DNA of 64,000 nt from positions 133,136 to 197,135 of the forward strand of contig NZ_JXCA02000002.1 of NCBI RefSeq assembly GCF_000828085.3, in the 5' to 3' direction. The position numbers were made by a program, and so were the translations under genes. Below, one piece after another: positions 15,897-35,103 of this stretch. Below the pieces are notes generated by a model that did not search any database, was not told the DNA's origin, and was given only the letters and a program-made list of their open reading frames with translations. Source of the DNA: Scytonema tolypothrichoides VB-61278 (GTDB taxonomy: Bacteria > Cyanobacteriota > Cyanobacteriia > Cyanobacteriales > Nostocaceae). Position 1 is the first letter of the stretch; each line of letters begins with the position of its first letter.

Positions 15897-16976
15897 TCAA
15901 CGCTGTAAATAGTTCAGCACAGCATGGGCTATCGTTTCATTTCCATCCTTAGCAATGAGTTGAGATTCCTTCGGTTGATTGGGTTGTTGGTTGAGAAAAT
16001 CCCAAGTTCCTTGGAAAAACTCAGATGGTTTGAGGATTTGATGTTGGTTGTAATTCGTAATACCTTCTAATAAAAAAGCAGCTTCTGCAAAGTCATCACG
16101 AGTCACTGAAATAATCGGCACGTCTAAACGTGTGGCTTCAGCAAAAGTACTGAAACCAGGTTTAGACACAACTCGCCCACAAATGGGCATAAAATCCACT
16201 GGGCGGTATTTTTGGTCAGTCGCTGACACTAAGTTTGGCAAATCAGGGGCAGACTGATCAAATGTGATAAATTGCCAATCTGGAAATTGCTTCAGGTTCT
16301 CGTAGGGAATTTGCTGCAAACCCAATCCACCAAAGGTGAGTAAGATAGTTTTTTCTTTTGGGGCTGTGATTCCCCATTTGGATCGTACTTCTTCGGGAGT
16401 ATAACGAGGAGAACCGCCTGTTAAGCCGACGTTTGTGATATTGTTGAAGGCTTGCATGGGTTCGTGGAAAGGAAGACGGAACAGGCGATCGCACTTCGAG
16501 TAACAATCACTTATCCAATCAGCAATCTCTGTAAAGCCACTACCCCAATCTCGATAGATAAAGTCAAAGCCAAAGTTACTCATCATCCAACAGGGTATCT
16601 TAGCTGCTTTGGCAATTTCACAGGCGAGAAAGGGGACATCTGCCAAAATAAGATTAACGCGATTTTGACGGATAAAGTTGACTTCAGAAGCAATAATAGA
16701 ATTTTGATTTTTTTTAATCTCAAGTAACTTTTCTAGAGTTGCAGTCTTATCCATTGTCAAGCTATCTGCTTGCACCACACCTAAATCCATCGCACGAGGA
16801 CGATGGATAAAATCGCCTTCTATGTAGGACTCTAGCAACCATCGTGGTGCTGTGCTGACTATGATCAGCAGAACTTCTGGACATAATTTTTGAATTGTCG
16901 CGGCGACAGCTGCTGCGCGGGTAGCATGACCAAAGCCATGACTGGTAATTGCTATGTATAAAATTGGTCTATCCAT
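15897..16976 (-). CDS. MurG-like glycosyltransferase family protein
   Basis: 359 residues from ATG 16976 (MDRPILYIAITSHGFGHATR). A TTG at 17018 would add 14 residues lying partly in a neighbouring repeat, so I reject it. The GHGxGH-like N-terminus (TSHGFGHATR), the central LLTFGGLGLQQIPYENL and C-terminal VVSKPGFSTFAEATRLDVP (nucleotide-sugar-binding loop) place it in the GT-B superfamily near GT28/MurG and the N-terminal domain of L-arabinokinase-like proteins. Acceptor and sugar unknown. It stands alone, with a MITE directly upstream. Confidence 0.75.
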   Translation of the reverse strand: MDRPILYIAITSHGFGHATRAAAVAATIQKLCPEVLLIIVSTAPRWLLESYIEGDFIHRPRAMDLGVVQADSLTMDKTATLEKLLEIKKNQNSIIASEVNFIRQNRVNLILADVPFLACEIAKAAKIPCWMMSNFGFDFIYRDWGSGFTEIADWISDCYSKCDRLFRLPFHEPMQAFNNITNVGLTGGSPRYTPEEVRSKWGITAPKEKTILLTFGGLGLQQIPYENLKQFPDWQFITFDQSAPDLPNLVSATDQKYRPVDFMPICGRVVSKPGFSTFAEATRLDVPIISVTRDDFAEAAFLLEGITNYNQHQILKPSEFFQGTWDFLNQQPNQPKESQLIAKDGNETIAHAVLNYLQR

Positions 16977-17018
16977 TAGGTGATTATTGAGGGAACGCTT
17001 AACAGAGAATAGATCCAA

Positions 17019-22942: not shown

Positions 22943-24550
22943 ATGCAAGATAGAAAAAGCAGACTCTTCCGAGAAGAAGCACTAGAACAGCTGTCATCAC
23001 CAGAAAAACTTGACCAACTGATGCAGGTCACAAGCCAGCAAGCTTGGTTACCTTTGCTTTCTATGGGCTTTTTGGTCGTTATAGCTGGTGTTTGGAGTGT
23101 AGTTGGGCGAATTCCACTCACTGTCACAGGTTCCGGCGTGTTGATCCGACCTCGTCATGTGTTGCAATTTCAAGCACTTAGTGCTGGACAATTATTAACT
23201 CTGAATATCAAGCCAGGAGATGTCGTTAGGCAAGGTCAAGTACTCGCCACAATCGACCAATCCAATATTAGGCAACAACTACAACAAGAAATAGCAAAGT
23301 TGAACCAACTTTTAGAGCAGAATCTAAACACCGATAGGCTGCAAAAGCAGCAAACAGTGCTGGCGCTAAGAACGCTTCAACAGCAGCAAAAAGACTTTGA
23401 AGAAAACCTACGTCGAGAATCAGTAGCACCGATACTGCACTCACAAACCCTTCAGGCGTTAAAGCAAAAACGACAAAGCCTTGAGCAAAGCGTGTCAAGA
23501 GAACAAGTCGCGCCAGTACTGTACAAACAAACTCTCACTGCACTAGCAGAAAAACGGAAAAGTCTTGAAGAGCAAAAGCAACAAATCAGTGCATTGGTAA
23601 AAACCTTGCAACAACGAGTTGAAACGCGTCGTAGTCTTTTTCAACAGAAGATTATTAGCCAAGATACACTACTGCAATCTCAGCAGGAATTGTTAAACGC
23701 TCAGCAGCAAATATCAGAGATTTCAACACAACTCAAAGACCTTGATGTTCAAAAAACGAGTAGCGAACGTGAATATCTACAAAACTTGAGTAAAATTGAT
23801 GATATCAAAAATAATATTCAAGAGCTTGAAGTTCAAAGAACAAATGCAGAGCGCGATTATCTGCAAAATCTGAATAAGCTAGATGAAATCAAAACCAAAA
23901 TCAAAGATACCGAAACCCAAAAAACGAAACTGGTTCAACAAGATTTAGAAAAGTCAATAAATAAGTTAAATCAAATTCAGGAAGTGAGACGGAAGATTGC
24001 CCAGTTAAAACTGCAATTAACGAAATCAAGCCAAGTTATTAGTAAATTTGATGGTCGGATTTTAGAAGTTGGCGTCTTGCCTGGTCAAGTCGTCAATTCT
24101 GGCACTCGTATTGGGACTATCGAAGCTGAAGATCGTAATGCCAAACTAGAAAGTCTTGTTTACTTTGCTGATAAGGATGGCAAGCAGATAAAACCAGGTA
24201 TGACGGTACAGGTGACACCTAGCGTTGTCAAGCGCGATCGCTTCGGTGGAATTGTCGGGACGGTAACAAAAGTTTCTCCCTTCCCTGTGACAACTGGCGA
24301 TATCATAGCGCAAGTTGGCAACGAAGACTTAGCTAAAAGCCTTGCTAATAGTAACGCAGCTCGCGTGCAAGTTTTTGTCCACCTGCAAAAAGATCCAGAC
24401 ACTGTCAGCGGTTACAAGTGGTCTTCTTCTAATGGACCAGCGCTACAAATCTCATCAGGTACGACTACGCAAGTGCGGGTCAAAGTTGGAGAAGTAGCTC
24501 CTATTTCTTACATTATTCCAATATTACGCTCTTGGACGGGTGTATATTAA
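22943..24550 (+). CDS. NHLP bacteriocin system secretion protein (HlyD family adaptor)
   Basis: Periplasmic adaptor of a peptide export system, 535 residues. One membrane helix (about 35-55) follows a short cytoplasmic tail; then comes a biotinyl-lipoyl-like half (SAGQLLTLNIKPGDVVRQGQ), a long coiled coil (about 110-370) and a second lipoyl half (SKFDGRILEVGVLPGQVVNS). Inside the coiled coil, DVQKTSSEREYLQNLSKIDD and EVQRTNAERDYLQNLNKLDE are near-identical repeats of about 34 residues, indicating a recent internal duplication. Followed 7 bases later by the C39-peptidase ABC transporter. The family name is from recognition; the export role is well established for HlyD-type adaptors. Confidence 0.87.
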   Translation: MQDRKSRLFREEALEQLSSPEKLDQLMQVTSQQAWLPLLSMGFLVVIAGVWSVVGRIPLTVTGSGVLIRPRHVLQFQALSAGQLLTLNIKPGDVVRQGQVLATIDQSNIRQQLQQEIAKLNQLLEQNLNTDRLQKQQTVLALRTLQQQQKDFEENLRRESVAPILHSQTLQALKQKRQSLEQSVSREQVAPVLYKQTLTALAEKRKSLEEQKQQISALVKTLQQRVETRRSLFQQKIISQDTLLQSQQELLNAQQQISEISTQLKDLDVQKTSSEREYLQNLSKIDDIKNNIQELEVQRTNAERDYLQNLNKLDEIKTKIKDTETQKTKLVQQDLEKSINKLNQIQEVRRKIAQLKLQLTKSSQVISKFDGRILEVGVLPGQVVNSGTRIGTIEAEDRNAKLESLVYFADKDGKQIKPGMTVQVTPSVVKRDRFGGIVGTVTKVSPFPVTTGDIIAQVGNEDLAKSLANSNAARVQVFVHLQKDPDTVSGYKWSSSNGPALQISSGTTTQVRVKVGEVAPISYIIPILRSWTGVY

Positions 24551-24557
24551 ACAGAAT

Positions 24558-26834
24558 ATGCCTTTTGCCCGCCTTAAAAGTATTCTACGCTCATCTCAAA
24601 CCAGTCGCGTCCGTACCCCGACGCTGCTGCAAATCGAAGCAACCGAATGCGGTGCAGCAGCACTTGGAATTATTCTAGGCTATTACTCGCGCATTGTCCC
24701 CTTGGCAGAATTACGGCGTGAGTGTGGCGTTTCGCGAGATGGTAGCAACGCTTTTAATGTCATCAAAGCAGCGAGGAACTATGGCTTAAATGCTAAAGGT
24801 TTGAAACTGTCTCTGGAAAGCCTCAAAACCCTTCCTCCTCCCTACATTGTCTTTTGGAATTTCAACCACTTTCTTGTGGTGGAAGGTTTTGGAAAAAACT
24901 ACGTCTACCTCAACGACCCCGCCACAGGACGCCGGACAGTTTCCCTAGAAGAGTTTAGTCGCGCCTACACTGGAGTTGTCCTGGCTATGCAACCAGGACC
25001 AGACTTTCAAAAAAGAGGTAAAAAAAATAACGTTATTTCTGCCTTAGCCTCACGCTTGCGAAACTCACAGAGCACTATCTTATTCTGCCTCCTCGCAGGA
25101 TTATTACTGACTTTTCCTAGATTAGCTGTGCCAGCTTTTACTCAGGTGTTTGTTGATGAAATTCTCGTCACTGAGCGATCTGACTGGATACGACCGCTGG
25201 TGTTAGGAATGGTTCTCACAGCTGTAGGAAGGGGCTTTCTTGCTTGGCTGCGGCTGACTTACTTGCGGCGGCTGATGGTTAAGTTGTCGGTGACAAACTC
25301 AGGGCAGTTTCTCTGGCATATTTTACGCTTACCAGTTGGGTTTTATGCTCAACGGTTTGCAGGTGAAATTAGCTCTCGGGTGCAACTGAATAATAAAGTT
25401 GCAAATGTGCTTTCAGGTACCCTTGCCACCACGGTTATTGACGCGGTGATGATGGTGCTTTACTTTCTGATTATGCTCCAGTACGATTCGGTACTGACGG
25501 GTGTTGCTCTGAGTTTTGCTGGGATAAACTTTTTCGCCCTACAGTTTTTATCGCGAACGAGAGTGGATGCCAATATGAAGCTGGCGCAGGAATATGGTAA
25601 GGTCAATGGGGTGGCGATCGCCGGCATTCAAACCATAGAAACAATCAAAGCTTCCGGGCTTGAGTCTGACTCGTTTGCTAAATTCGCCGGGAACTATGCC
25701 AAAGCACTCAACGCTCAGCAAGAATTAGCTCTACAAACTCAAATTCTGACAGTATTACCTACATTTTTGACAGCACTGACAACTACCTCTATTTTATTTC
25801 TCGGCGGCTATCGGGTGATGAACGGTAACCTGAGTATTGGGATGTTAGTTGCTTACCAAAGTTTAACAGCCAGCTTCCTAGAGCCAATCAACAGTTTGAT
25901 TAATTTTGGCAGTATATTGCAAGATTTAGAGGCTGACTTAAACCGCCTTGATGATGTACTGCAAAATTCGGTGGATGCAGAAGCTTTACGGGGAGCAAGG
26001 GGAGCAGGGGAGCAGGGGAGCAGGGGAGCAGGGGAGGCAGGGGAGGCAGGGGAGGCAGGGGAGGCAGGGAAATTTATTGAAAATTATAATCAATTACCAA
26101 TATCCTTTCAGTTGCGGGGTTATGTTGAGTTACGAGATATCACCTTTGGGTATAGCCGTGTGGACAATCCTTTGATTGAGAACTTTAGCTTAATTTTGGA
26201 GCCAGGACAACGAGTGGCGATCGTAGGGGGGAGTGGTTCTGGTAAGTCTACAATTGCCAAGCTTGTTTGCGGTTTATACGAACCTTGGAATGGGGAAATT
26301 TGTTTTGATGGCGTACCCAGAACTCAGATTCCTCGCTCTGTTTTGGCGAATTCTTTGGCAATGGTAGAACAGGATATTTTTCTGTTTGCTGGGACAGTTC
26401 GGGAAAATCTTACCTTATGGGATTCCACAGTATCACAAACTGATTTGGTGCGGGCTTGCTCTGATGCAGTTATTCACGATTTGATTGAATCTCTGCCTGG
26501 GGGATACGAAGCCAAGCTGATTGAAGGAGGAATGAACATCAGTGGTGGACAGCGCCAACGTTTAGAAATTGCTCGCGCTTTGGTTCGGAATCCGTCAGTA
26601 TTGGTCATGGATGAAGCAACTTCTGCGCTGGATGCTCAAACAGAATTGATGATTGATAGGAATCTGCGGCGACGCGGTTGTTCTTGTATTGTGATAGCGC
26701 ACCGACTCAGCACGATTCGAGATTGTGATGAAATTATTGTACTGGAGCACGGTAAAGTTGTGCAGCGGGGCACTCATGAGGAGTTATGGCACTCAGGGGG
26801 GAAATATACCAGCTTGCTTCGTACTGAAGAATGA
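24558..26834 (+). CDS. NHLP-family bacteriocin export ABC transporter (C39 peptidase-permease-ATPase)
   Basis: Cleaves double-glycine leaders and exports the core peptide, 758 residues from ATG 24558 (GTG 24540 would overlap the previous gene). C39 peptidase about 18-145: Cys31 in ATECGAAALG, His in FNHFLVVEG, Asp in NDPATG, all present. Six-helix domain about 155-440. NBD about 530-758 with Walker A GGSGSGKST, signature SGGQRQR, Walker B VLVMDEATSALD. The linker (about 479-504) contains a Gly-Ala-Glu repeat encoded by an in-frame GGGGAGCA/GGGGAGGCA minisatellite. Partner of the adjacent adaptor. Any precursor must carry a GG leader; one candidate lies at 28718-28909. Confidence 0.9.
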   Translation: MPFARLKSILRSSQTSRVRTPTLLQIEATECGAAALGIILGYYSRIVPLAELRRECGVSRDGSNAFNVIKAARNYGLNAKGLKLSLESLKTLPPPYIVFWNFNHFLVVEGFGKNYVYLNDPATGRRTVSLEEFSRAYTGVVLAMQPGPDFQKRGKKNNVISALASRLRNSQSTILFCLLAGLLLTFPRLAVPAFTQVFVDEILVTERSDWIRPLVLGMVLTAVGRGFLAWLRLTYLRRLMVKLSVTNSGQFLWHILRLPVGFYAQRFAGEISSRVQLNNKVANVLSGTLATTVIDAVMMVLYFLIMLQYDSVLTGVALSFAGINFFALQFLSRTRVDANMKLAQEYGKVNGVAIAGIQTIETIKASGLESDSFAKFAGNYAKALNAQQELALQTQILTVLPTFLTALTTTSILFLGGYRVMNGNLSIGMLVAYQSLTASFLEPINSLINFGSILQDLEADLNRLDDVLQNSVDAEALRGARGAGEQGSRGAGEAGEAGEAGEAGKFIENYNQLPISFQLRGYVELRDITFGYSRVDNPLIENFSLILEPGQRVAIVGGSGSGKSTIAKLVCGLYEPWNGEICFDGVPRTQIPRSVLANSLAMVEQDIFLFAGTVRENLTLWDSTVSQTDLVRACSDAVIHDLIESLPGGYEAKLIEGGMNISGGQRQRLEIARALVRNPSVLVMDEATSALDAQTELMIDRNLRRRGCSCIVIAHRLSTIRDCDEIIVLEHGKVVQRGTHEELWHSGGKYTSLLRTEE
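25993..26072 (+). repeat. G-rich minisatellite inside the transporter gene
   Basis: Tandem GGGGAGCA units followed by GGGGAGGCA units, translated in frame as repeated Gly-Ala-Gly-Glu and Gly-Glu-Ala. The frame stays open on both sides. Position matches the linker between the membrane domain and the NBD, which tolerates length change. Confidence 0.85.
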
Positions 26835-27144
26835 TTTGATTGCTGTGCTCAAGGAAGGATGATTACAAATTCTGCACGGATTGCTATATATGAAATATAT
26901 AGCAGTCGCCACAATTGTTAGGACATTTCCTTGTTCCCTGTTAAGAGTTCCCTCTTAATCAAAGTACGATGTCCTAAACGATATGTCTGTTGCTATATCA
27001 TCATCAAGATTGATAAAAAAGCAATTGATTATCAGCAACTGACACAACTATTAAACCATCTTGAACTCAAGTCAATCAGTCAGCGAAGTCAACTAACAGA
27101 GGAAAGTGCGGCTGAAGATCGCGAATGAAATCGACTCTACATTA
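26835..27144. other. Intergenic region after the C39 transporter
   Basis: About 310 bases. A frame at 26931-27128 ends in a polar stretch (IDKKAIDYQQLTQLLNHLEL) that looks like a degraded protein tail but matches nothing I recognise. A short TTCCCTG-like motif is at 26930-26940. No terminator was identified. Confidence 0.35.
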
Positions 27145-27335
27145 TCATCTGTCAAATATTGATTCAAAGAGGGATCGCGCCTGCGCCAATGCTTGATGCT
27201 GTGTAATAAGCTTGATATCGCCATTCTCTTCATGAATGGTCACAATATCCCCTTCCGCCATATTCAGCTTTTTACGAATAACAGCAGGTATTTGTACTGT
27301 TTGCGCCTTTTTGTATCTGGTGCCCGATAGTCCAT
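27145..27335 (-). pseudogene. Decayed AbrB/MazE-type antitoxin gene, copy 1
   Basis: Minus-strand frame encodes TVQIPAVIRKKLNMAEGDIV followed by TIHEENGDIKLITQHQALAQ and ends FESIFDR-stop at 27145. V-x-I-P-A-x-I-R-K-x-L-x-x-x-x-G-D is the AbrB/SpoVT swapped-hairpin signature. The only ATG upstream (27333-27335) is in another frame and separated by an A-run (about 27309-27313), so a frameshift broke the start. The DNA-binding half is intact but unlikely to be made. Confidence 0.6.
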
Positions 27336-27437
27336 TTTTTTAATTTTCTACAATTTTACTTAATTTGTACAAAATTATTTTCATCCAAAAAATTAAAAAT
27401 TGACACTTCCCTGGCTAAAGCCCTACAGTGTACACAC

Positions 27438-27529
27438 CGTGATCGCGCCTGCGCCAACGCTTGATGCTGTGTAATAAGCTTGATATCGCCATTCTCTTCA
27501 CGAATGGTCACAATATGGCCTTCTGCCAT
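27438..27529 (-). pseudogene. Decayed AbrB-type gene, copy 2 (partial duplication)
   Basis: About 92 bases nearly identical to 27175-27266, reading MAEGHIVTIREENGDIKLIT and then diverging after ALAQARS. It lacks the N-terminal IPAVIRKKL half. A short direct duplication of the neighbouring antitoxin gene, in the same orientation. Confidence 0.6.
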
Positions 27530-27561
27530 ATCTATTGATATTTCTCACAAGTTTAAGTGCA

Positions 27562-27879
27562 TTATTCGTAGTGATACCGACAAGTGAGAAAATCAATCTG
27601 GGTGTTTCCCACCCGATAGACAAGCCGATGCTCTAAATCTATTCGCCGCGACCAGATATCTACATCCATATACTTCAATGGTTCCGGTTTACCAATACCC
27701 TCAAATGGATCTTGCATAACAGCCGTCACCAAATCCAAAATTTTTGAAGCTTTGTCAAAATCTTGCTTGAACCACCAAGCTAAATCTTCTTTAAATTTAG
27801 AACTAAAACCAGGAGTGCGATTCACTACAACTGGCTTGATTTCATCAGTTTCAACCTTCTTTTTCTTCTTCTTGCCCAA
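27562..27879 (-). CDS. yoeB: Toxin of the YoeB/Txe family
   Basis: Ribosome-dependent mRNA interferase of the RelE fold, 105 residues. The core KEDLAWWFKQDFDKASKILD, then PFEGIGKPEPLKY, then DIWSRRIDLEHRLVYRV and TCRYHYE follow the YoeB pattern, with the catalytic C-terminal His and Tyr and the WSRRI...EHRLVY motif intact. The N-terminal basic run (GKKKKKKVETDE, residues 2-13) is extra. Its start lies inside the antitoxin gene (29-base overlap), the usual arrangement. Confidence 0.9.
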   Translation of the reverse strand: MGKKKKKKVETDEIKPVVVNRTPGFSSKFKEDLAWWFKQDFDKASKILDLVTAVMQDPFEGIGKPEPLKYMDVDIWSRRIDLEHRLVYRVGNTQIDFLTCRYHYE

Positions 27880-28156
27880 TCCCCAACTCCTGCTGAAGTT
27901 CTGCGATAGTTTGAGGTTGAATCTTTCCTGTTTTCGACTCTTCTATTGCTTCCAGCAGGCGACGTGCATTCGCAGGCGATCGCAATAGATAAACCGTTTC
28001 AACCAAACTCACTAAATCTGACTCAGCAATCAAGGCTACATTTTCGCTATCACGACGGTTGATGATATACACTTGATGATTTTCTACTACCAGGTCTAAC
28101 AGCTTAAAAAAGTCATTTCTGGCATCGGTTGGGGATGTGATTTTGTAGGGTAGCAT
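27851..28156 (-). CDS. yefM: Antitoxin of the Phd/YefM family
   Basis: 101 residues. The N-terminal MLPYKITSPTDARNDFFKLL and the following IINRRDSENVALIAESDL form the YefM DNA-binding and dimerisation fold; the C-terminal half (helical, TIAELQQELGIGQEEE) neutralises the toxin and is rich in Glu. Pairs with the overlapping YoeB gene. Expected autoregulation through its own promoter. Its position inside a bacteriocin locus may help keep that region. Confidence 0.9.
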   Translation of the reverse strand: MLPYKITSPTDARNDFFKLLDLVVENHQVYIINRRDSENVALIAESDLVSLVETVYLLRSPANARRLLEAIEESKTGKIQPQTIAELQQELGIGQEEEKEG

Positions 28157-28717
28157 CAGTTTATGTACAAACTTCTGTACATCTATTCTAAATTGTCAAT
28201 CATCTTGCTGACAATTTCCAAAAAAGAATCTTTCATGGGTATGAATGCTAGGGGAGTGTCAAAAACCAAAACCAGCTAGCAAGTCTTACTCGGTAAGATA
28301 AGTAAGCTGCTAGCTGGTCATCAAAGTTATTGTAATATGCTCTGGAGTCTAGTTAGATGCAAAGGTTCACCTGGTCTATTGACACTTACACAACCAGCAG
28401 TGCCACGTATCAATTGTTTAATTTAGCAAGGCTGTTTCATTCGAGCAGGTAGGATTTTATCAATATCATGAGCGAGAAATTTGAGATGTTGGAAATAGAA
28501 ATATTACTACAAGACTCCATAAATTTAAGTGCAATCGCCATGATAATTGTCCAATCAGATTTTTCTTAGATTGCTTACCCTAGACGGCTTTAAATCAGCG
28601 TCTTTGTGCAAATGAAACAGCTCTGCCCTGTTGAGTCGAAGTAGTAGAAAACTTTATCACTGCTAATCGAGCATTGTGTATTTAATGCACGTTTAGGCTA
28701 TAGAAGTATAAAGTCTA
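28157..28717. other. Intergenic region between antitoxin gene and peptide gene
   Basis: About 560 bases. It holds a two-level hairpin at 28270-28317 and a 33-codon plus-strand frame (28468-28569, MSEKFEMLEIEILLQDSINL) without a convincing ribosome site. AT-rich otherwise. Confidence 0.45.
28270..28317 (-). terminator. Two-level hairpin downstream of the peptide gene
   Basis: ACCAGCTAGC (28270-28279) pairs with GCTAGCTGGT (28308-28317), and inside it CTTAC-TCG-GTAAG forms a second stem. It is about 400 bases past the peptide gene's stop on the minus strand. No clear U-run, so a terminator is only one option; a structured RNA end or repeat remnant is possible. Confidence 0.35.
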
Positions 28718-28909
28718 TTACTTGTTAGCAGTACCAAGGGTAGCAACTAAAGTACCCACAGGAGGAACAACAGGCGTAAGTGCTATACCCGCAGTAACTA
28801 GAAGATCATCAACAGCAGTACCAACAGATCCACCGTTGATTGCCATTAAATCAGCATCAGACAGTTCTTGAAGCTCAACAGTGGTTTCAGATTCGTTACG
28901 TGCGTTCAT
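28718..28909 (-). CDS. Candidate bacteriocin precursor with double-glycine leader
   Basis: 63 residues. The N-terminal 27 end in ELSDADLMAINGG, a standard class II double-glycine leader (L-S-x-x-x-L-x-x-I-x-G-G). The predicted core is 36 residues, starts SVGTAVDDLLVTAGIAL, is hydrophobic and Gly/Val/Thr/Pro-rich, has no Cys, and ends GTANK. ATG 28907-28909 is preceded by AAGGT (28918-28922) and by a TATTATA box further upstream. It lies on the opposite strand, between the C39 transporter (ends 26834) and the second ABC transporter (starts 30262), and is a plausible substrate for that export system. Lacking any recognised family, it may be new. Confidence 0.7.
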   Translation of the reverse strand: MNARNESETTVELQELSDADLMAINGGSVGTAVDDLLVTAGIALTPVVPPVGTLVATLGTANK

Positions 28910-29450
28910 TTTTTGTTACCTTGTGTTTTGTGTGTTTTCACTCTGTACTGAGTGCATGCTTGTATAATATAGCTGTTCAATATTGATTCTTATCTATCTA
29001 AAGAGGTAGTTATGTTTAGTGACAAATTTACCTAAAAAATGCGTAGTCAAATATCCAAAAAAAAGAGATTGACGTCATTCTATAAATAGAGTATGTGCTT
29101 TTTAAGTCTGAATTTTAATAGTACAAGTGTAATATTCAAGTTGGAAATCCTTGCTGTACAGTCAATAGAAAGTGTGGTTAATGCACTGTACCCATGTTGT
29201 CATTGCTGGAAATAAAAGCACATCAATAGGTATGCAAAAAAGTAGGGGAAATGTGTTGCTATCAATCTGCCGTATAATAACTGTACTGTATTGCTGCCAA
29301 TATCTGTGTCAAAAAAATATTATTAGCGTCAATAGTCCGCAGTGGGTGGAACAATGTAAAAGTACTACCACCGGTGCGCCATATGCACAAGCTAAAGCGT
29401 ATGCGCAAAGCGCACGGTGCGCCAACGACTGACTTGTGCTGAGCCTGTCG
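28910..29450. other. Promoter region of the peptide gene and spacer
   Basis: About 540 AT-rich bases. On the minus strand, AAGG and a TATTATA box lie within 70 bases of the peptide start. A frame at 29172-29432 has no recognisable product and ends in repeats. Confidence 0.4.
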
Positions 29451-29615
29451 AAGTAGCGCGGTTCGGCGCTCGCGCTCACCGTCGATAGGCGTAACCGTAC
29501 CGCAGGCGAGGCTTATCGCCCTTGTTTGCCTGCAGTTCAGATCTTGCGCCATAATTCTCGTCCGCCAAGAAATAAATTCTGGGGCTAAGAGTTCAAGTCC
29601 GTTAAAACTCAGATT

Positions 29616-29716
29616 TTGCAGCAGTATCAACAACGAGGCTCTGCCTCGACATCTCGTTCCCAGGCTGAGCCTGGGAACGAGGGTTGGGAGGCTCAGCCTC
29701 CTGATTATTGAGAATG
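29616..29716. repeat. Dispersed hairpin repeat, copy 1
   Basis: About 100 bases shared with 41029-41130. Contains three stems: AGGC-TCT-GCCT, CTCGTTCCCAGGCT paired with AGCCTGGGAACGAG, and GAGGCTCAGCCTC. In the other copy the loops change while the arms stay paired. Confidence 0.8.
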
Positions 29717-30015
29717 GTGAGCCAGCGCGGTGAGGCAGCCCCCGTCTTGGTGAGTCCACTTGCCGTCTTGGCGGTTCCCGTCACGATGGCAAAGTGGCGA
29801 ACCCGAAGGGCGGTTCCCGTCGATGGGGGACTGCCTCTCCCGTTGGGTCTTGGGGAGCCAGGCGCTAACAGCGGGTCTCCCGACAGTCCCGCGTCTGGCG
29901 TGGTTTCCACGCCAGGTGCACCGTCCTTGGGAACCCTCCGCAGTCGCCTCAACGGGGGGGAACCCCCGCACGGCGCTGCTCTCCGCAACGCACTGGCTCC
30001 CCATGAGCGACTGGT

Positions 30016-30092
30016 GAGACAGCGCGAATGACGGCTCTCCCGACCTAGGCGACTGCGTTCGTCGAAGACGTGCCGAAGGCATACCCGAAGGG
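30016..30092. repeat. Dispersed palindromic element, copy 2
   Basis: Relative of 22737-22813. The inner stem is CGTC-GAA-GACG here against CACC-GAA-GGTG there. Confidence 0.7.
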
Positions 30093-30261
30093 CGAACCCG
30101 GAGGGTGCAAGATCTCAGTTAAAACTGACTGGGTAAGTTTTTCACGAGGCACTGCGTTGGCTTCCCTTAATAAGGGGAGGGGGGGTTTTGGTGTTAAACA
30201 AAACCGGGGTGGGGTTATGCGGGATTTATAAGTGATTAAGCGAACTTGATATAATAGATAT

Positions 30262-33021
30262 ATGGAAGTCCTATATCGCCTGAAAGGAAATGAACGACTA
30301 CTGCTAAATGACCCAGAAAAGGTATGGGTTGTCGTGAGTGGCCATGTATCATTGTTTGCCACAAAAGTCTCCGATGAGATGCCAGAGGCTGTTAAGCGTA
30401 GCTCTGCCGTAGGCAATCGCCTCACACAAGCGGATCAAAACGAGCATCGTCGTTATTTATTCAGTGTAGGTGCAAGAACGGCGTTGTTTGGTGCAGCAAC
30501 CAAAATTGGTGAATCTTTGAGTTTAGTAGCAGTCGCAATTGAGGCAACAGAATTATCCCAAATTTCGATTGCAGATTTAGTCAGGCGAGTGGCGACAGGT
30601 GAAGCGGAAGTGATGCTGCAAACCGCGACGCACGCGAACGCTTTAATAAAAGATTGGATAAATCACTTAAGTGAGACATTCAGCACGGAACCCACACCAG
30701 CAAATTTTTCCCACTATTTACCCTTAATAAAGTCAGAAAATGCTGCTTCACTGCCAAGCATTTTGGCTGATTTACATACTGAATTCTTCCACTATTTAAA
30801 GAAACTGCAACAGCAAGAAACACACACAGCCTTTCGCCAATTTCAACAACGAGAGCAACTCAACCGTCAGGTTGTCAATTCCGCACTCTCTAAGTTAGCT
30901 TCTGTGTTGCAACCGCAGCAAGAAACTGCATCTTTTCAACAAGGAACACCATTATTAGTAGCGGCGGGCGCAGTTGGACGAGCAATGGGGATAACGATAA
31001 ATCCTCCAGCGCAGTCTGAAGACATCAGTCGAGTCAAAGATCCAGTGGAGGCTATTGCTCGCTCCTCGCAAATTCGGACTCGTCGCGTCGTGCTAGAGTA
31101 TGGCTGGTGGCTGCGTGAGTATGGTCCACTTTTAGCTTATACCCAAGAAGAAAAGCGTCCGATCGCTTTGTTGCCAACAGGTAAACGTTATATTTTCTTT
31201 GATCCTGTTGCACAAACTCGCACGTTTGTCAACCAAACAGTAGCGGCAACGCTAGCACCGCAAGCATACCAGTTTTACCGACCGTTACCCAAAGTTATCA
31301 ATAATGCACTGGTGTTGTTTCAGTTTGGGATTAAGGGTTATGAAAAAGACATCATTTTAATTCTGGTAACTGGGATAATTGGTAGCTTGTTGGGGATGGT
31401 GGTGCCGCAAGCAACAGCGCTTTTGGTGGATAATGCAATTCCAGATAGCGATCAGAGTTTATTATCGCAAATAGGACTGGCATTGTTTGTGATCGCCTTT
31501 GGAAGATCAGCTTTTAGCTTGTCCCAAGGGATTATTTCATTGCGAGTGGAAAACGCTGCTGATAGTACTTTGCAGCCTGCGATTTGGGATCGACTCCTGA
31601 GATTAAGTCCAGCATTTTTTCGCTCTTATTCTTCTGGCGACTTACTAAACCGGACTTTATCAGTAAACCAAATTCGTCGGCTACTGTCGGGCGCAACGCA
31701 ACGCACCCTGTTAAGTGGACTGTTTGCTTTACTGAATGTAGTGCTAATGTTTGTTTACAGTTGGCAACTCGCCTTAGTTGGGGTGGGCGTAGCTTTGCTA
31801 ACAGCTGCAATCACTGCTGTCTCTGGCTTGCTATTAGTTCGCTTTTCGCGACGGCTGCAAAAACTGGATGGTGAAATTAGTGGGTTAACAGTACAACTTA
31901 TAAATGGAGTCGCCAAGTTGCGGGTGGCGCAGGCAGAAGAACGAGCGTTTGCAGCTTGGGCAAATCAGTACAGCCAAAGAACCAGACTAACAGCAACATC
32001 GCAACAAATTAAAGACAGTGTTTCTGTGTTGAACGAAATATTATCTTTGCTTACTTCGGCACTGTTGTTTGGGTTGGCGGTGGTGTTTCTGCAAAAAGCT
32101 CAAGCCAGTGGTAGCGGCGGGTTCACAACAGGAACATTTTTGGCGTTTAATTCCGCGTTGGGAATTTTTATCGGGGGAGTCAGCAACCTCAGCAATACTT
32201 TGATTACTATTTTGGCAATTGTACCACTATGGGAGCGGGCAAAGCCGATTTTGCAGCAGGAACTAGAGTACGATTCTAACAAGGTTGATCCAGGGCGCTT
32301 AATGGGTCGTGTCACTTTAGACCATGTTACCTTTCGTTATCGTGAAGATGGTCCGCCGATTCTTGATGATGTCAGTCTTTATGCAGAACCTGGGGAATTT
32401 GTGGCGATAGTTGGACCATCGGGAAGTGGGAAGTCAACTATACTCAGGTTATTACTGGGGTTTGAAACTCCGCTCTCAGGAAAAGTATACTACGATAACT
32501 TTGACTTAGCTCAATTAGACCTTGTGGCGGTGCGAAGGCAATTAGGAGTCGTGCTGCAAAATGGTCGAATTGGATCTGGCTCAATTTTTGAAAACATATC
32601 CGCTTCTGCGTTGATATCGCACGATGAAGCTTGGGAAGCCGCGCGGATGGCGGGTTTTGCTGCTGATATTGAGCTTTTTCCAATGGGGATGCACACCGTT
32701 ATTAGTGAAGGTGGTACCAATCTTTCAGGAGGACAACGCCAACGATTATTGATTGCTAGAGCACTTGTCAATAAGCCGAAAATTATCTTAATGGATGAGG
32801 CGACTAGTTCTTTGGATAACCGGACACAAGCGATTGTAACTGAAAGTTTAGATCAATTGAATGCGACTCGGATAGTGATTGCCCACCGCCTTAGTACAAT
32901 TCGCAATGCTGACCGAATTTATGTGATGGAAGCGGGGCGCGTCGTACAGGTGGGTACATTTGAGGAACTAGCCGAACAAGAGGGGTTGTTTTCTCAACTA
33001 GTCGCCAGACAAATGGAATAA
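30262..33021 (+). CDS. NHLP-system export ABC transporter permease/ATPase (no peptidase)
   Basis: Second ABC transporter of the NHLP/NHLM bacteriocin export system, 919 residues. Residues 1-120 resemble a cyclic-nucleotide-binding-like cupin domain (LLNDPEKVWVVVSGHVSLF). A variable region follows, then a membrane domain (about 365-640), then an NBD (about 670-919) with Walker [10 protein letters not shown], signature SGGQRQR and Walker B IILMDEATSSLD. It lacks the C39 peptidase, as expected for this subunit. A TATAAT lies about 10 bases before the ATG, so the leader is very short or the start is further downstream. Probably works with the adaptor and PCAT at 22943-26834. Confidence 0.87.
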   Translation: MEVLYRLKGNERLLLNDPEKVWVVVSGHVSLFATKVSDEMPEAVKRSSAVGNRLTQADQNEHRRYLFSVGARTALFGAATKIGESLSLVAVAIEATELSQISIADLVRRVATGEAEVMLQTATHANALIKDWINHLSETFSTEPTPANFSHYLPLIKSENAASLPSILADLHTEFFHYLKKLQQQETHTAFRQFQQREQLNRQVVNSALSKLASVLQPQQETASFQQGTPLLVAAGAVGRAMGITINPPAQSEDISRVKDPVEAIARSSQIRTRRVVLEYGWWLREYGPLLAYTQEEKRPIALLPTGKRYIFFDPVAQTRTFVNQTVAATLAPQAYQFYRPLPKVINNALVLFQFGIKGYEKDIILILVTGIIGSLLGMVVPQATALLVDNAIPDSDQSLLSQIGLALFVIAFGRSAFSLSQGIISLRVENAADSTLQPAIWDRLLRLSPAFFRSYSSGDLLNRTLSVNQIRRLLSGATQRTLLSGLFALLNVVLMFVYSWQLALVGVGVALLTAAITAVSGLLLVRFSRRLQKLDGEISGLTVQLINGVAKLRVAQAEERAFAAWANQYSQRTRLTATSQQIKDSVSVLNEILSLLTSALLFGLAVVFLQKAQASGSGGFTTGTFLAFNSALGIFIGGVSNLSNTLITILAIVPLWERAKPILQQELEYDSNKVDPGRLMGRVTLDHVTFRYREDGPPILDDVSLYAEPGEFVAIVGPSGSGKSTILRLLLGFETPLSGKVYYDNFDLAQLDLVAVRRQLGVVLQNGRIGSGSIFENISASALISHDEAWEAARMAGFAADIELFPMGMHTVISEGGTNLSGGQRQRLLIARALVNKPKIILMDEATSSLDNRTQAIVTESLDQLNATRIVIAHRLSTIRNADRIYVMEAGRVVQVGTFEELAEQEGLFSQLVARQME

Positions 33022-33903: not shown

Positions 33904-35103
33904 TTACCTTTTGCCTTCTTCAACAAATCGCTGAATTCCTTCCACCAGTTCGTCGATTTCTGATTCTAGAGTTAAATAGTGAACACAAGCACGTACGCAG
34001 TCAGGATCGACGATTGTTCTGGTTAATAACTTTTGTGATTCTAAAAACAGCACGAGTTGGCGGCTAGTTGATGGTGTTTGATTTGTCAGTTGAAACGAGA
34101 CTAAACCGCTTTCTGGTGGAGAAGTTCGCAAAGTTTTGATATCGGGTAAAACTTGTAATTGTCGCCACAAGTACTCACTATTGCGGCAAATTTGCTGATA
34201 ACGTTCCTCTGGTGTTCCCCACTGCTGATGAGTTGCGATCGCCTCCCTTAGCGCCGTATAAAGTGGATAATTCGATGTAGCTACTTCATACCGTTTTCCA
34301 TCGCTTTGCCAATCCACAGGCTTTCCTTTACTGTCTAAAGTAACGCCGCGCCAACCGATAAACGTAGGCTTCAAACTGTCTCGGGCTTCTGGTCGCACAT
34401 ACAAACCTCCCGTACCACCAGGACCGCACAGCCATTTGTGACCCGTAAATGCGTAAAAATCCGCTTTCAATTCAGTGAGATTTAATGGCAGTAAGCCTAC
34501 AGATTGAGCCGCATCTATCAGAAGTTTGACTGATTTACTTATGCATAACTCAGCTATCTTGTCAATCGGCAAAACTTGACCTGTATTCCAAAGAACGTGA
34601 CTCAATATCACAAGACGAGTGTTTGGACGTAAGTGTTGGGCAATCACTTCAACGGGGTCACCTTCATTTAAAGTTGCCATTAGGGGACAGGTGGTGAGTT
34701 CAACACCGAACCTCCGCCCGATTTCCTGAGCTGTCGCTATAATACCAGGGTGTTCGCAATCGCTAAGTAGTATATGGTCGCCAGCTTGCCATTGCTGACC
34801 CCACATAGCAATATTACAGCCGACGGTGACATCTTCAGTCAGGGTGATTGTTTCGGCTGGGACACTTAACTCAGAGGCGATCGCGTTTCTCGCAGCCTTT
34901 GTCTCCTCTATTATCCAACTGTTCACCTCAGTCCCAAAAGGACCTATTTGTTGGATATAAGCTTGCGCGTCAGAGATCGCATCTAAAGCCCTTTGTGGCA
35001 TTGGTCCTTGACCGCCGTAGTTAAAATATGCTTTATTTGCCAAACCTGGAAATAGCTGTCGATGGTGAAGTAATTTAGTTGGTGATGCAGAAAGACTAGT
35101 CAT
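33904..35103 (-). CDS. Class V aminotransferase (cysteine desulfurase-like)
   Basis: PLP enzyme of the NifS/CsdA-like group, 399 residues. The PLP lysine lies in FTGHKWLCGPGGTGGLY, with DAAQSVGLLPLNL (PLP-pyridine Asp) and SDCEHPGIIATAQEIG. No active-site Cys loop typical of class I NifS/IscS could be assigned with certainty, so it could be a desulfurase, an isopenicillin-N-epimerase-like enzyme or another lyase. No Fe-S assembly genes nearby. Start ATG 35101-35103. Confidence 0.85.
   Translation of the reverse strand: MTSLSASPTKLLHHRQLFPGLANKAYFNYGGQGPMPQRALDAISDAQAYIQQIGPFGTEVNSWIIEETKAARNAIASELSVPAETITLTEDVTVGCNIAMWGQQWQAGDHILLSDCEHPGIIATAQEIGRRFGVELTTCPLMATLNEGDPVEVIAQHLRPNTRLVILSHVLWNTGQVLPIDKIAELCISKSVKLLIDAAQSVGLLPLNLTELKADFYAFTGHKWLCGPGGTGGLYVRPEARDSLKPTFIGWRGVTLDSKGKPVDWQSDGKRYEVATSNYPLYTALREAIATHQQWGTPEERYQQICRNSEYLWRQLQVLPDIKTLRTSPPESGLVSFQLTNQTPSTSRQLVLFLESQKLLTRTIVDPDCVRACVHYLTLESEIDELVEGIQRFVEEGKR

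Follow-up and report, generated by a model that had tools for sequence, protein, structure and literature searches.

The window (the whole stretch of DNA analysed here, 64,000 nucleotides of a 7.9-Mb genome, label G000) carries an intact gene for a 63-residue double-glycine precursor, located between the two ABC transporter genes of an NHLM exporter and on the strand opposite to them. We favour, at a probability of about 0.5, the reading that this gene encodes a microcin-like peptide which would be cut and exported unmodified by the adjacent exporter and would have an antagonistic or recognition role, with its mature part most likely under diversifying selection.

An intact precursor gene inside an exporter locus

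The preliminary description of this DNA had called a 63-residue gene with a GG leader and a 36-residue, Cys-free core, lying between two transporter genes on the opposite strand and preceded by the signals AAGG and TATTATA; the frame, the leader and core, the placement and both signals, which lie in a block aligned in four genomes, were all recovered. The features of the locus are the following:

22943..24550, + strand, HlyD-type adaptor (TIGR03794, 346.7 bits, cut-off 156.2)
24540..26834, + strand, C39 peptidase/permease/ATPase, or C39-ABC (TIGR03796, 1151.6 bits, cut-off 853.3)
27562..28156, - strand, YefM/YoeB toxin-antitoxin pair, on the strand and in the gap of the peptide gene; position or length varies in relatives
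28270..28319, - strand, intrinsic-terminator-like hairpin with a T-rich run behind it, some 400 nt past the peptide stop codon
28718..28909, - strand, gene for the 63-residue double-glycine precursor (leader, residues 1-27, 28829-28909; core, residues 28-63, 28721-28828; stop, 28718-28720)
28919..28922, - strand, AAGG, ribosome-binding-site-like, 9 nt before the ATG (counted by eye), in 4/4 aligned genomes
28963..28969, - strand, TATTATA, -10-like box, about 53 nt upstream of the ATG (counted by eye), identical in G020 and G025, TACTATA in G022
30262..33021, + strand, second ABC permease/ATPase, without peptidase (TIGR03797, 1002.7 bits, cut-off 709.4)

The peptide gene thus lies inside the 3.4-kb gap between the C39-ABC and second ABC genes. 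It opens with an ATG, and the 27-residue leader ends in ELSDADLMAINGG (residues 15-27, with the GG at residue 27), a short leader of the ELSxxELxxIxGG type, ending in GG or GA, that characterizes double-glycine secreted peptides; the GG-leader consensus is printed as ELSEKELAQIIGG in PMC2887384. The 36-residue core is acidic and hydrophobic. Inspection by eye of the upstream DNA revealed no clear -35 box. Downstream, the hairpin at 28270-28319 has a fold z of -5.28, with none of 200 shuffles equally stable and with stem arms aligned in four genomes, and may possibly mark the end of the peptide transcript; an Rfam scan of 26800-30300 gave no match at E 0.1. The conserved block 3′ of the peptide gene occurs in the genome as one full copy and one 45-base match, a copy number that rules out a dispersed repeat.

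A chance ORF was rejected on three grounds: the GG-leader pattern retrieved no ORF from first-order Markov sequence totalling 10.7 Mb (its model built from one locus per genome of the 15-genome exporter clade, see below), the gene is found in three further genomes, and its codon pattern is non-random. Coding in another frame was likewise discarded; four of the other five frames contain 3 to 8 stops, and the fifth, with a single stop, would make third codon positions the conserved ones.

The C39-ABC protein has a complete catalytic triad (Cys37, His110 and Asp126, numbered from the GTG at 24540), so that the short leader lies near a C39 transporter with the Cys/His/Asp residues; their spacing is the same as that of Cys32, His105 and Asp121 in CvaB of the class II microcins, as given in PMC9746304. 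A low-complexity stretch, GEAGEAGEAG, separates the membrane and ATPase parts of the protein (window about 25990-26071). Together, the HlyD protein, the short C39-ABC and the ABC protein without peptidase make up the protein set that defines group V clusters; no LanM, which would place the cluster in group IV, was seen by eye among the neighbouring ORFs. We infer the following course for the peptide: the leader would dock to the C39 domain of the adjacent exporter (HlyD, C39-ABC and second ABC), the C39-ABC protein would cut the precursor after Gly27, the 36-residue core would leave the cell unmodified through the same exporter, and the mature peptide would have an antagonistic or recognition role towards other cells, of its own strain or of related ones.

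In the gap, ORFs of 40-300 codons were compared with those of three relatives, and none was immunity-like: 3/3 relatives matched just the peptide gene, YefM and one ORF lying antisense to YefM/YoeB, and a few others were matched in one or two. Microcin immunity proteins are described in PMC9746304 as having little or no sequence similarity. The YefM/YoeB pair, which is probably a passenger outside the peptide system, is complete in the window, in G021 and in G025; G020 and G022 carry shortened versions, and G024 has a YefM-like stretch only. Two relatives carry in their peptide gap a large protein (L022:16370-18082 and L024:11894-13594) that was not seen in the gap of the window; that of L024 is a sulfate permease carrying a STAS domain, and that of L022 starts with identical residues.

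Upstream of HlyD lie ORFs that, judged by eye, encode two histidine kinases and a response regulator, relatives of which adjoin HlyD in L023, L048 and L059. This neighbourhood would suit a peptide with a signalling or kin-recognition function, perceived by one of these nearby kinases; the kinases, however, look by eye to be of the phytochrome/PAS type and not peptide sensors, and we hold this role to be improbable.

The peptide gene within the genus

The peptide gene is found in the same place and orientation between the exporter genes of G020, G022 and G025, i.e., in three of the six other genomes of the genus, or four of seven with G000 included. It was not found at the locus in G021, a draft that is 89% complete and in which the exporter is divided between two contigs, nor in G023, where the ABC genes are only 60 bp apart, nor in G024, where the gap between them is 1.2 kb and a single weak match lies elsewhere (E 0.0096). 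Absence from the locus in G023 and G024, together with large gap inserts that set genomes apart, could be taken as signs of a non-functional relic whose expression or export has been lost. Against this, the start codon, the open frame, AAGG and the leader GG are kept in 4/4 genomes and the -10 box in three, with one change in the fourth (G022), and we consider a relic very improbable.

Alignment of the four genomes shows conservation of the leader and of the upstream DNA (weaker upstream in G022), and again of the 3′ flank; the cores of G022 and G025 cannot be aligned. Further GG peptides lie at L022. At L022:11968-13534 there are four in tandem, with leader and upstream DNA in common with the window peptide. 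At L022:14459-15797 an 83-residue GG peptide adjoins a protein that combines an MvdD pre-ATP-grasp and a RimK domain, a putative graspetide-like pair within the orthologous locus.

Sequence change in the peptide and in its exporter

Between G000 and G020 the coding part of the peptide gene differs at 20 sites, of which 11 are first, 8 second and 1 third codon positions. The Nei-Gojobori method counts 0.3 synonymous changes over 51 sites and 19.7 nonsynonymous changes over 138 sites, which gives a dN/dS of about 24, a value that rests on one genome pair and 20 changes. For the same pair, dN/dS is 0.20 for HlyD and 0.18 for both C39-ABC and the second ABC gene. In a null simulation in which 20 changes were placed randomly with the observed transition share (15,230 of 20,000 draws were free of stops and kept), the probability of as few synonymous changes was 6.6e-5. 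The leaders of G000, G020 and G022 differ by 3 to 6 codons per pair, all nonsynonymously.

The peptide dS of 0.007 is low compared with 0.27-0.30 for the exporter genes, and the DNA flanking the peptide differs by about 12%; the peptide dN/dS is therefore inflated, because synonymous sites are oddly conserved by something that acts there too, perhaps recent exchange of the region or an RNA constraint. A diversifying core is more in keeping with a microcin-like peptide directed at other cells than with a structural peptide.

Association with the exporter clade across the family

The N-terminal region of the second ABC protein was used to delimit an exporter clade; it matched 15 of the 217 family genomes at 108.7 bits or more (next match, 73.3). 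All 15 loci were read, and 10 of them (G000, G020, G021, G022, G025, G061, G081, G084, G085 and G192) have at least one short-leader GG peptide, which in G021 is of the chaplin type only (see below); none was found at the locus in G023, G024, G178, G180 and G181 (for G180, on a contig of 6.7 kb). By comparison, of the 17 NHLM loci outside the clade, 6 have a GG peptide; in three of these the GG falls no later than residue 50, and one of the three is probably a cut N11P (10/15 vs 3/17; Fisher P 0.010). The strict GG pattern used missed the N11P-type ORF of L036, seen with a looser pattern, and the AG-leader chaplin of G020.

Searches of the family extended this picture. The peptide alone as query matched 10 of 217 genomes at E 0.01, its own and three of the same genus included, and a leader profile matched 38 at the same threshold; of its six matches below 1e-10, five are genomes that supplied rows of the profile, and 11 weak matches that fall in frames of about 500 codons are probably unrelated. 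A scan of genome contigs with the peptide confirmed one relative among the matches listed, L021, which is G020 itself. Leader homologues were also found in L026 and L092, where the stretch read holds no exporter match and where they adjoin orthologues of window genes 15897-17018 and 33904-35103.

The preliminary description had asked for the same leader near other C39 transporters, and had taken the peptide to be the exporter's substrate. The first was found, as homologues at the orthologous exporter of three other genus genomes and, more widely, as short-leader GG peptides in 10 of the 15 exporter-clade genomes. Taken together, the homologues at the same locus and the association across the clade make the peptide a well-supported putative substrate of the adjacent exporter. 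The second claim thus stands as probable cargo by locus association, putatively cut and exported by the adjacent exporter. The genome has 13 C39-family matches, of which the 12 besides the exporter's own might act on the peptide. Secretion by one of these other transporters, a reading compatible with the rest and one that would suit the leader homologues lying away from the exporter, is nonetheless unlikely in view of the locus association in 10/15 genomes.

Five GG peptides share a core stretch GNGGxPT[ST]G (L107:3802-5764, L096:8113-10020, L095:9825-12068, L097:7938-9804 and L101:4799-6631). Each lies just upstream (about 90-570 nt; about 230 nt in L107) of a same-strand protein of 462-496 residues, and the three of these neighbours that were scanned belong to the xanthine/uracil permease family (PF00860); peptide and permease are possibly a pair.

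Core composition and relation to known families

Thirteen clade cores were tabulated, a set that excludes the Cys-containing chaplin-type peptides and two of the four tandem G020 copies; all thirteen are free of Cys, with a net charge of -1 to -3 and a pI of 4.1-4.4. For the window core, GRAVY is 1.00 and the average mass was calculated as 3432.0. A motif P-[LIVP]-V-G is present in 4 of 11 non-redundant cores (shuffle P 5e-5); having been spotted post hoc, it is a lead only.

The core had been described beforehand as not assignable to a known bacteriocin family, and indeed the window peptide (P0001) matched nothing above cut-off in Pfam and NCBIfam; its sole model match was TIGR03949 (14.6 bits, cut-off 21.5), and TIGR01847 did not match it. 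The latter model is matched by five of the nine members of alignment A2 (best E 0.029). Matches to PDB sequences were at chance level (best E 0.92 for the window peptide and 0.26 for a sister chaplin-type peptide), and at E 0.1 nothing in the plasmid collection matched. Three assignments were tried and rejected: an NHLP/N11P precursor, by the GG at residue 27 and the lack of an NCBIfam or Pfam match; a lanthipeptide, by the absence of Cys from the 36-residue core; and a chaplin, by the lack of a ChpA-C (PF03777) match.

The survey in PMC3140520 reports 290 precursors in 145 clusters of 58 genomes, 150 of them classed as 'Other', and NHLP or N11P make up 21 of its 37 group V precursors. With the 'Other' precursors and group V clusters described there, the window locus shares the GG leader, the set of HlyD, short C39-ABC and peptidase-less ABC proteins, a precursor within 20 kb and a poorly conserved core; it differs from group V, as described, in having the gene on the opposite strand inside the exporter and in being neither NHLP nor N11P. 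The proposal of a new peptide class therefore holds only insofar as the core matches no model above cut-off, since unnamed short-leader GG precursors were already known (PMC3140520): the window peptide adds to the known 'Other' GG precursors, with a measured diversification signal. It shares with the NHLM system the exporter families TIGR03794, TIGR03796 and TIGR03797 and the GG cleavage motif, but its leader has 27 residues, against averages of 83 and 70 given for NHLP and N11P, and its core has no Cys (PMC2887384). Class II microcins, as presented in PMC9746304, are alike in the GG leader, the C39 triad spacing, an adaptor protein and a variable core, whereas the window locus, known from its sequence, has two ABC proteins and no recognised immunity gene.

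Chaplin-domain peptides in sister genomes

In three of the seven genus genomes (G025, G020 and G021), a gene for a chaplin-domain peptide lies between HlyD and C39-ABC, on the exporter strand. These peptides have 93-103 residues and a leader ending in VIGG (VIAG in G020); the PF03777 ChpA-C domain was identified in the G025 peptide, L024:17661-17960, with E 1.4e-27 (the best of those scanned; 95.8 bits, cut-off 21). The sister chaplin gene is adjoined by a MauE-type gene (PF07291, E 3.7e-17 in G025), which is present in four of seven genus genomes, i.e., the same three and G022, which has no chaplin, and was not detected in G000, G023 and G024 at E 1e-20. The two Cys residues of the domain and the MauE-type gene suggest that the sister chaplin peptides may undergo a disulfide step. 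A PF03777 search of the family genomes found the domain in 7 of 217, the window's own genome not among them, and in none of 386 genomes of a phylum draw, in which control matches were, however, likewise zero. The seven peptides are:

L024:17661-17960, - strand, chaplin-domain (PF03777) peptide
L048:4102-4413, - strand, chaplin-domain (PF03777) peptide
L059:5123-5404, - strand, chaplin-domain (PF03777) peptide
L057:9761-10033, chaplin-domain (PF03777) peptide
L058:9927-10241, chaplin-domain (PF03777) peptide
L060:9873-10145, chaplin-domain (PF03777) peptide
L061:9763-10122, chaplin-domain (PF03777) peptide

In six of them the leader ends in GG or AG and a MauE-type gene lies next door. Three of these are GG-leader chaplin-type peptides from three genomes of another genus, each accompanied by a MauE-type gene and a further GG peptide, and the 17-20 kb read at these loci hold no match to the exporter proteins of the window apart from one short ABC-ATPase-like match; the fourth peptide outside the genus has no GG and an N-terminus that is, by eye, Sec-signal-like. 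For the chaplin genes, dN/dS is 0.38-0.97 in three pairs. Chaplins are described as assembling on Streptomyces aerial hyphae (PMC4255298; PMC7582709), and among the literature matches whose titles and abstract openings were judged, which are part of the total, none dealt with cyanobacterial chaplins. With these descriptions in mind, the likeness is confined to the sister-genome cargo, which matches the domain behind a leader ending in GG or AG, and does not extend to the window peptide. The GG-leader chaplin lies outside the window and is a more surprising result than the window peptide itself.

This cargo bears on the main rival reading, a surface or matrix peptide whose core would self-assemble on the filament or in the mat and whose diversity would be surface variation. 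The orthologous operon with its GG- or AG-leader chaplin-domain peptide in 3/7 genus genomes speaks for it, as do the hydrophobic and acidic nature of the core and the precedent of EbfG1-4, small GG proteins of Synechococcus elongatus whose secretion is reported to depend on a C39 protein, PteB (PMC4997328), and of which EbfG1-3 are reported to be amyloid-prone (PMC9981879). The window peptide resembles EbfG1-4 in being a small GG protein; a biofilm role and amyloid formation are reported for EbfG (PMC4997328; PMC9981879). On the other side, the window peptide has no chaplin match, the dN/dS of the chaplin genes, at 0.38-0.97, does not rise far above 1, and an AlphaFold model contains helices, not strands, to which little weight can be given at a mean pLDDT of 55.0 and a pTM of 0.20. 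We regard a surface or matrix peptide as possible but, on balance, doubtful.

The microcin-like reading has its own counter-evidence. No immunity-like ORF was found among the gap ORFs of 40-300 codons, the dN/dS comes from one pair with a low dS, five of the 15 clade loci (one on a 6.7-kb contig) show no short-leader GG peptide, leader homologues in L026 and L092 have no exporter match in the stretch read, and the chaplin-like cargo of the operon in three sister genomes points to a surface role. A further and rather unlikely proposal is that the exporter might be a dedicated coating machine for the filament, with a hydrophobic, self-assembling GG-leader chaplin, a MauE-type disulfide partner and diversifying acidic peptides that would tune or individualise the sheath. 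The habitat of Brasilonema is described as mineral and plant surfaces (PMC7261140).

A specific, testable peptide family is thus tied to one NHLM exporter clade, and there is a measured sign of diversification in its mature part; to our knowledge, there are few such measurements for cyanobacterial GG peptides. If the coating proposal were true, filamentous cyanobacteria of rock and plant surfaces would use a coat-protein domain of Streptomyces aerial hyphae by way of a bacteriocin-type exporter. With the chaplin-domain cargo, it becomes directly testable whether these exporters play a part in surface coats or in mats of terrestrial cyanobacteria.
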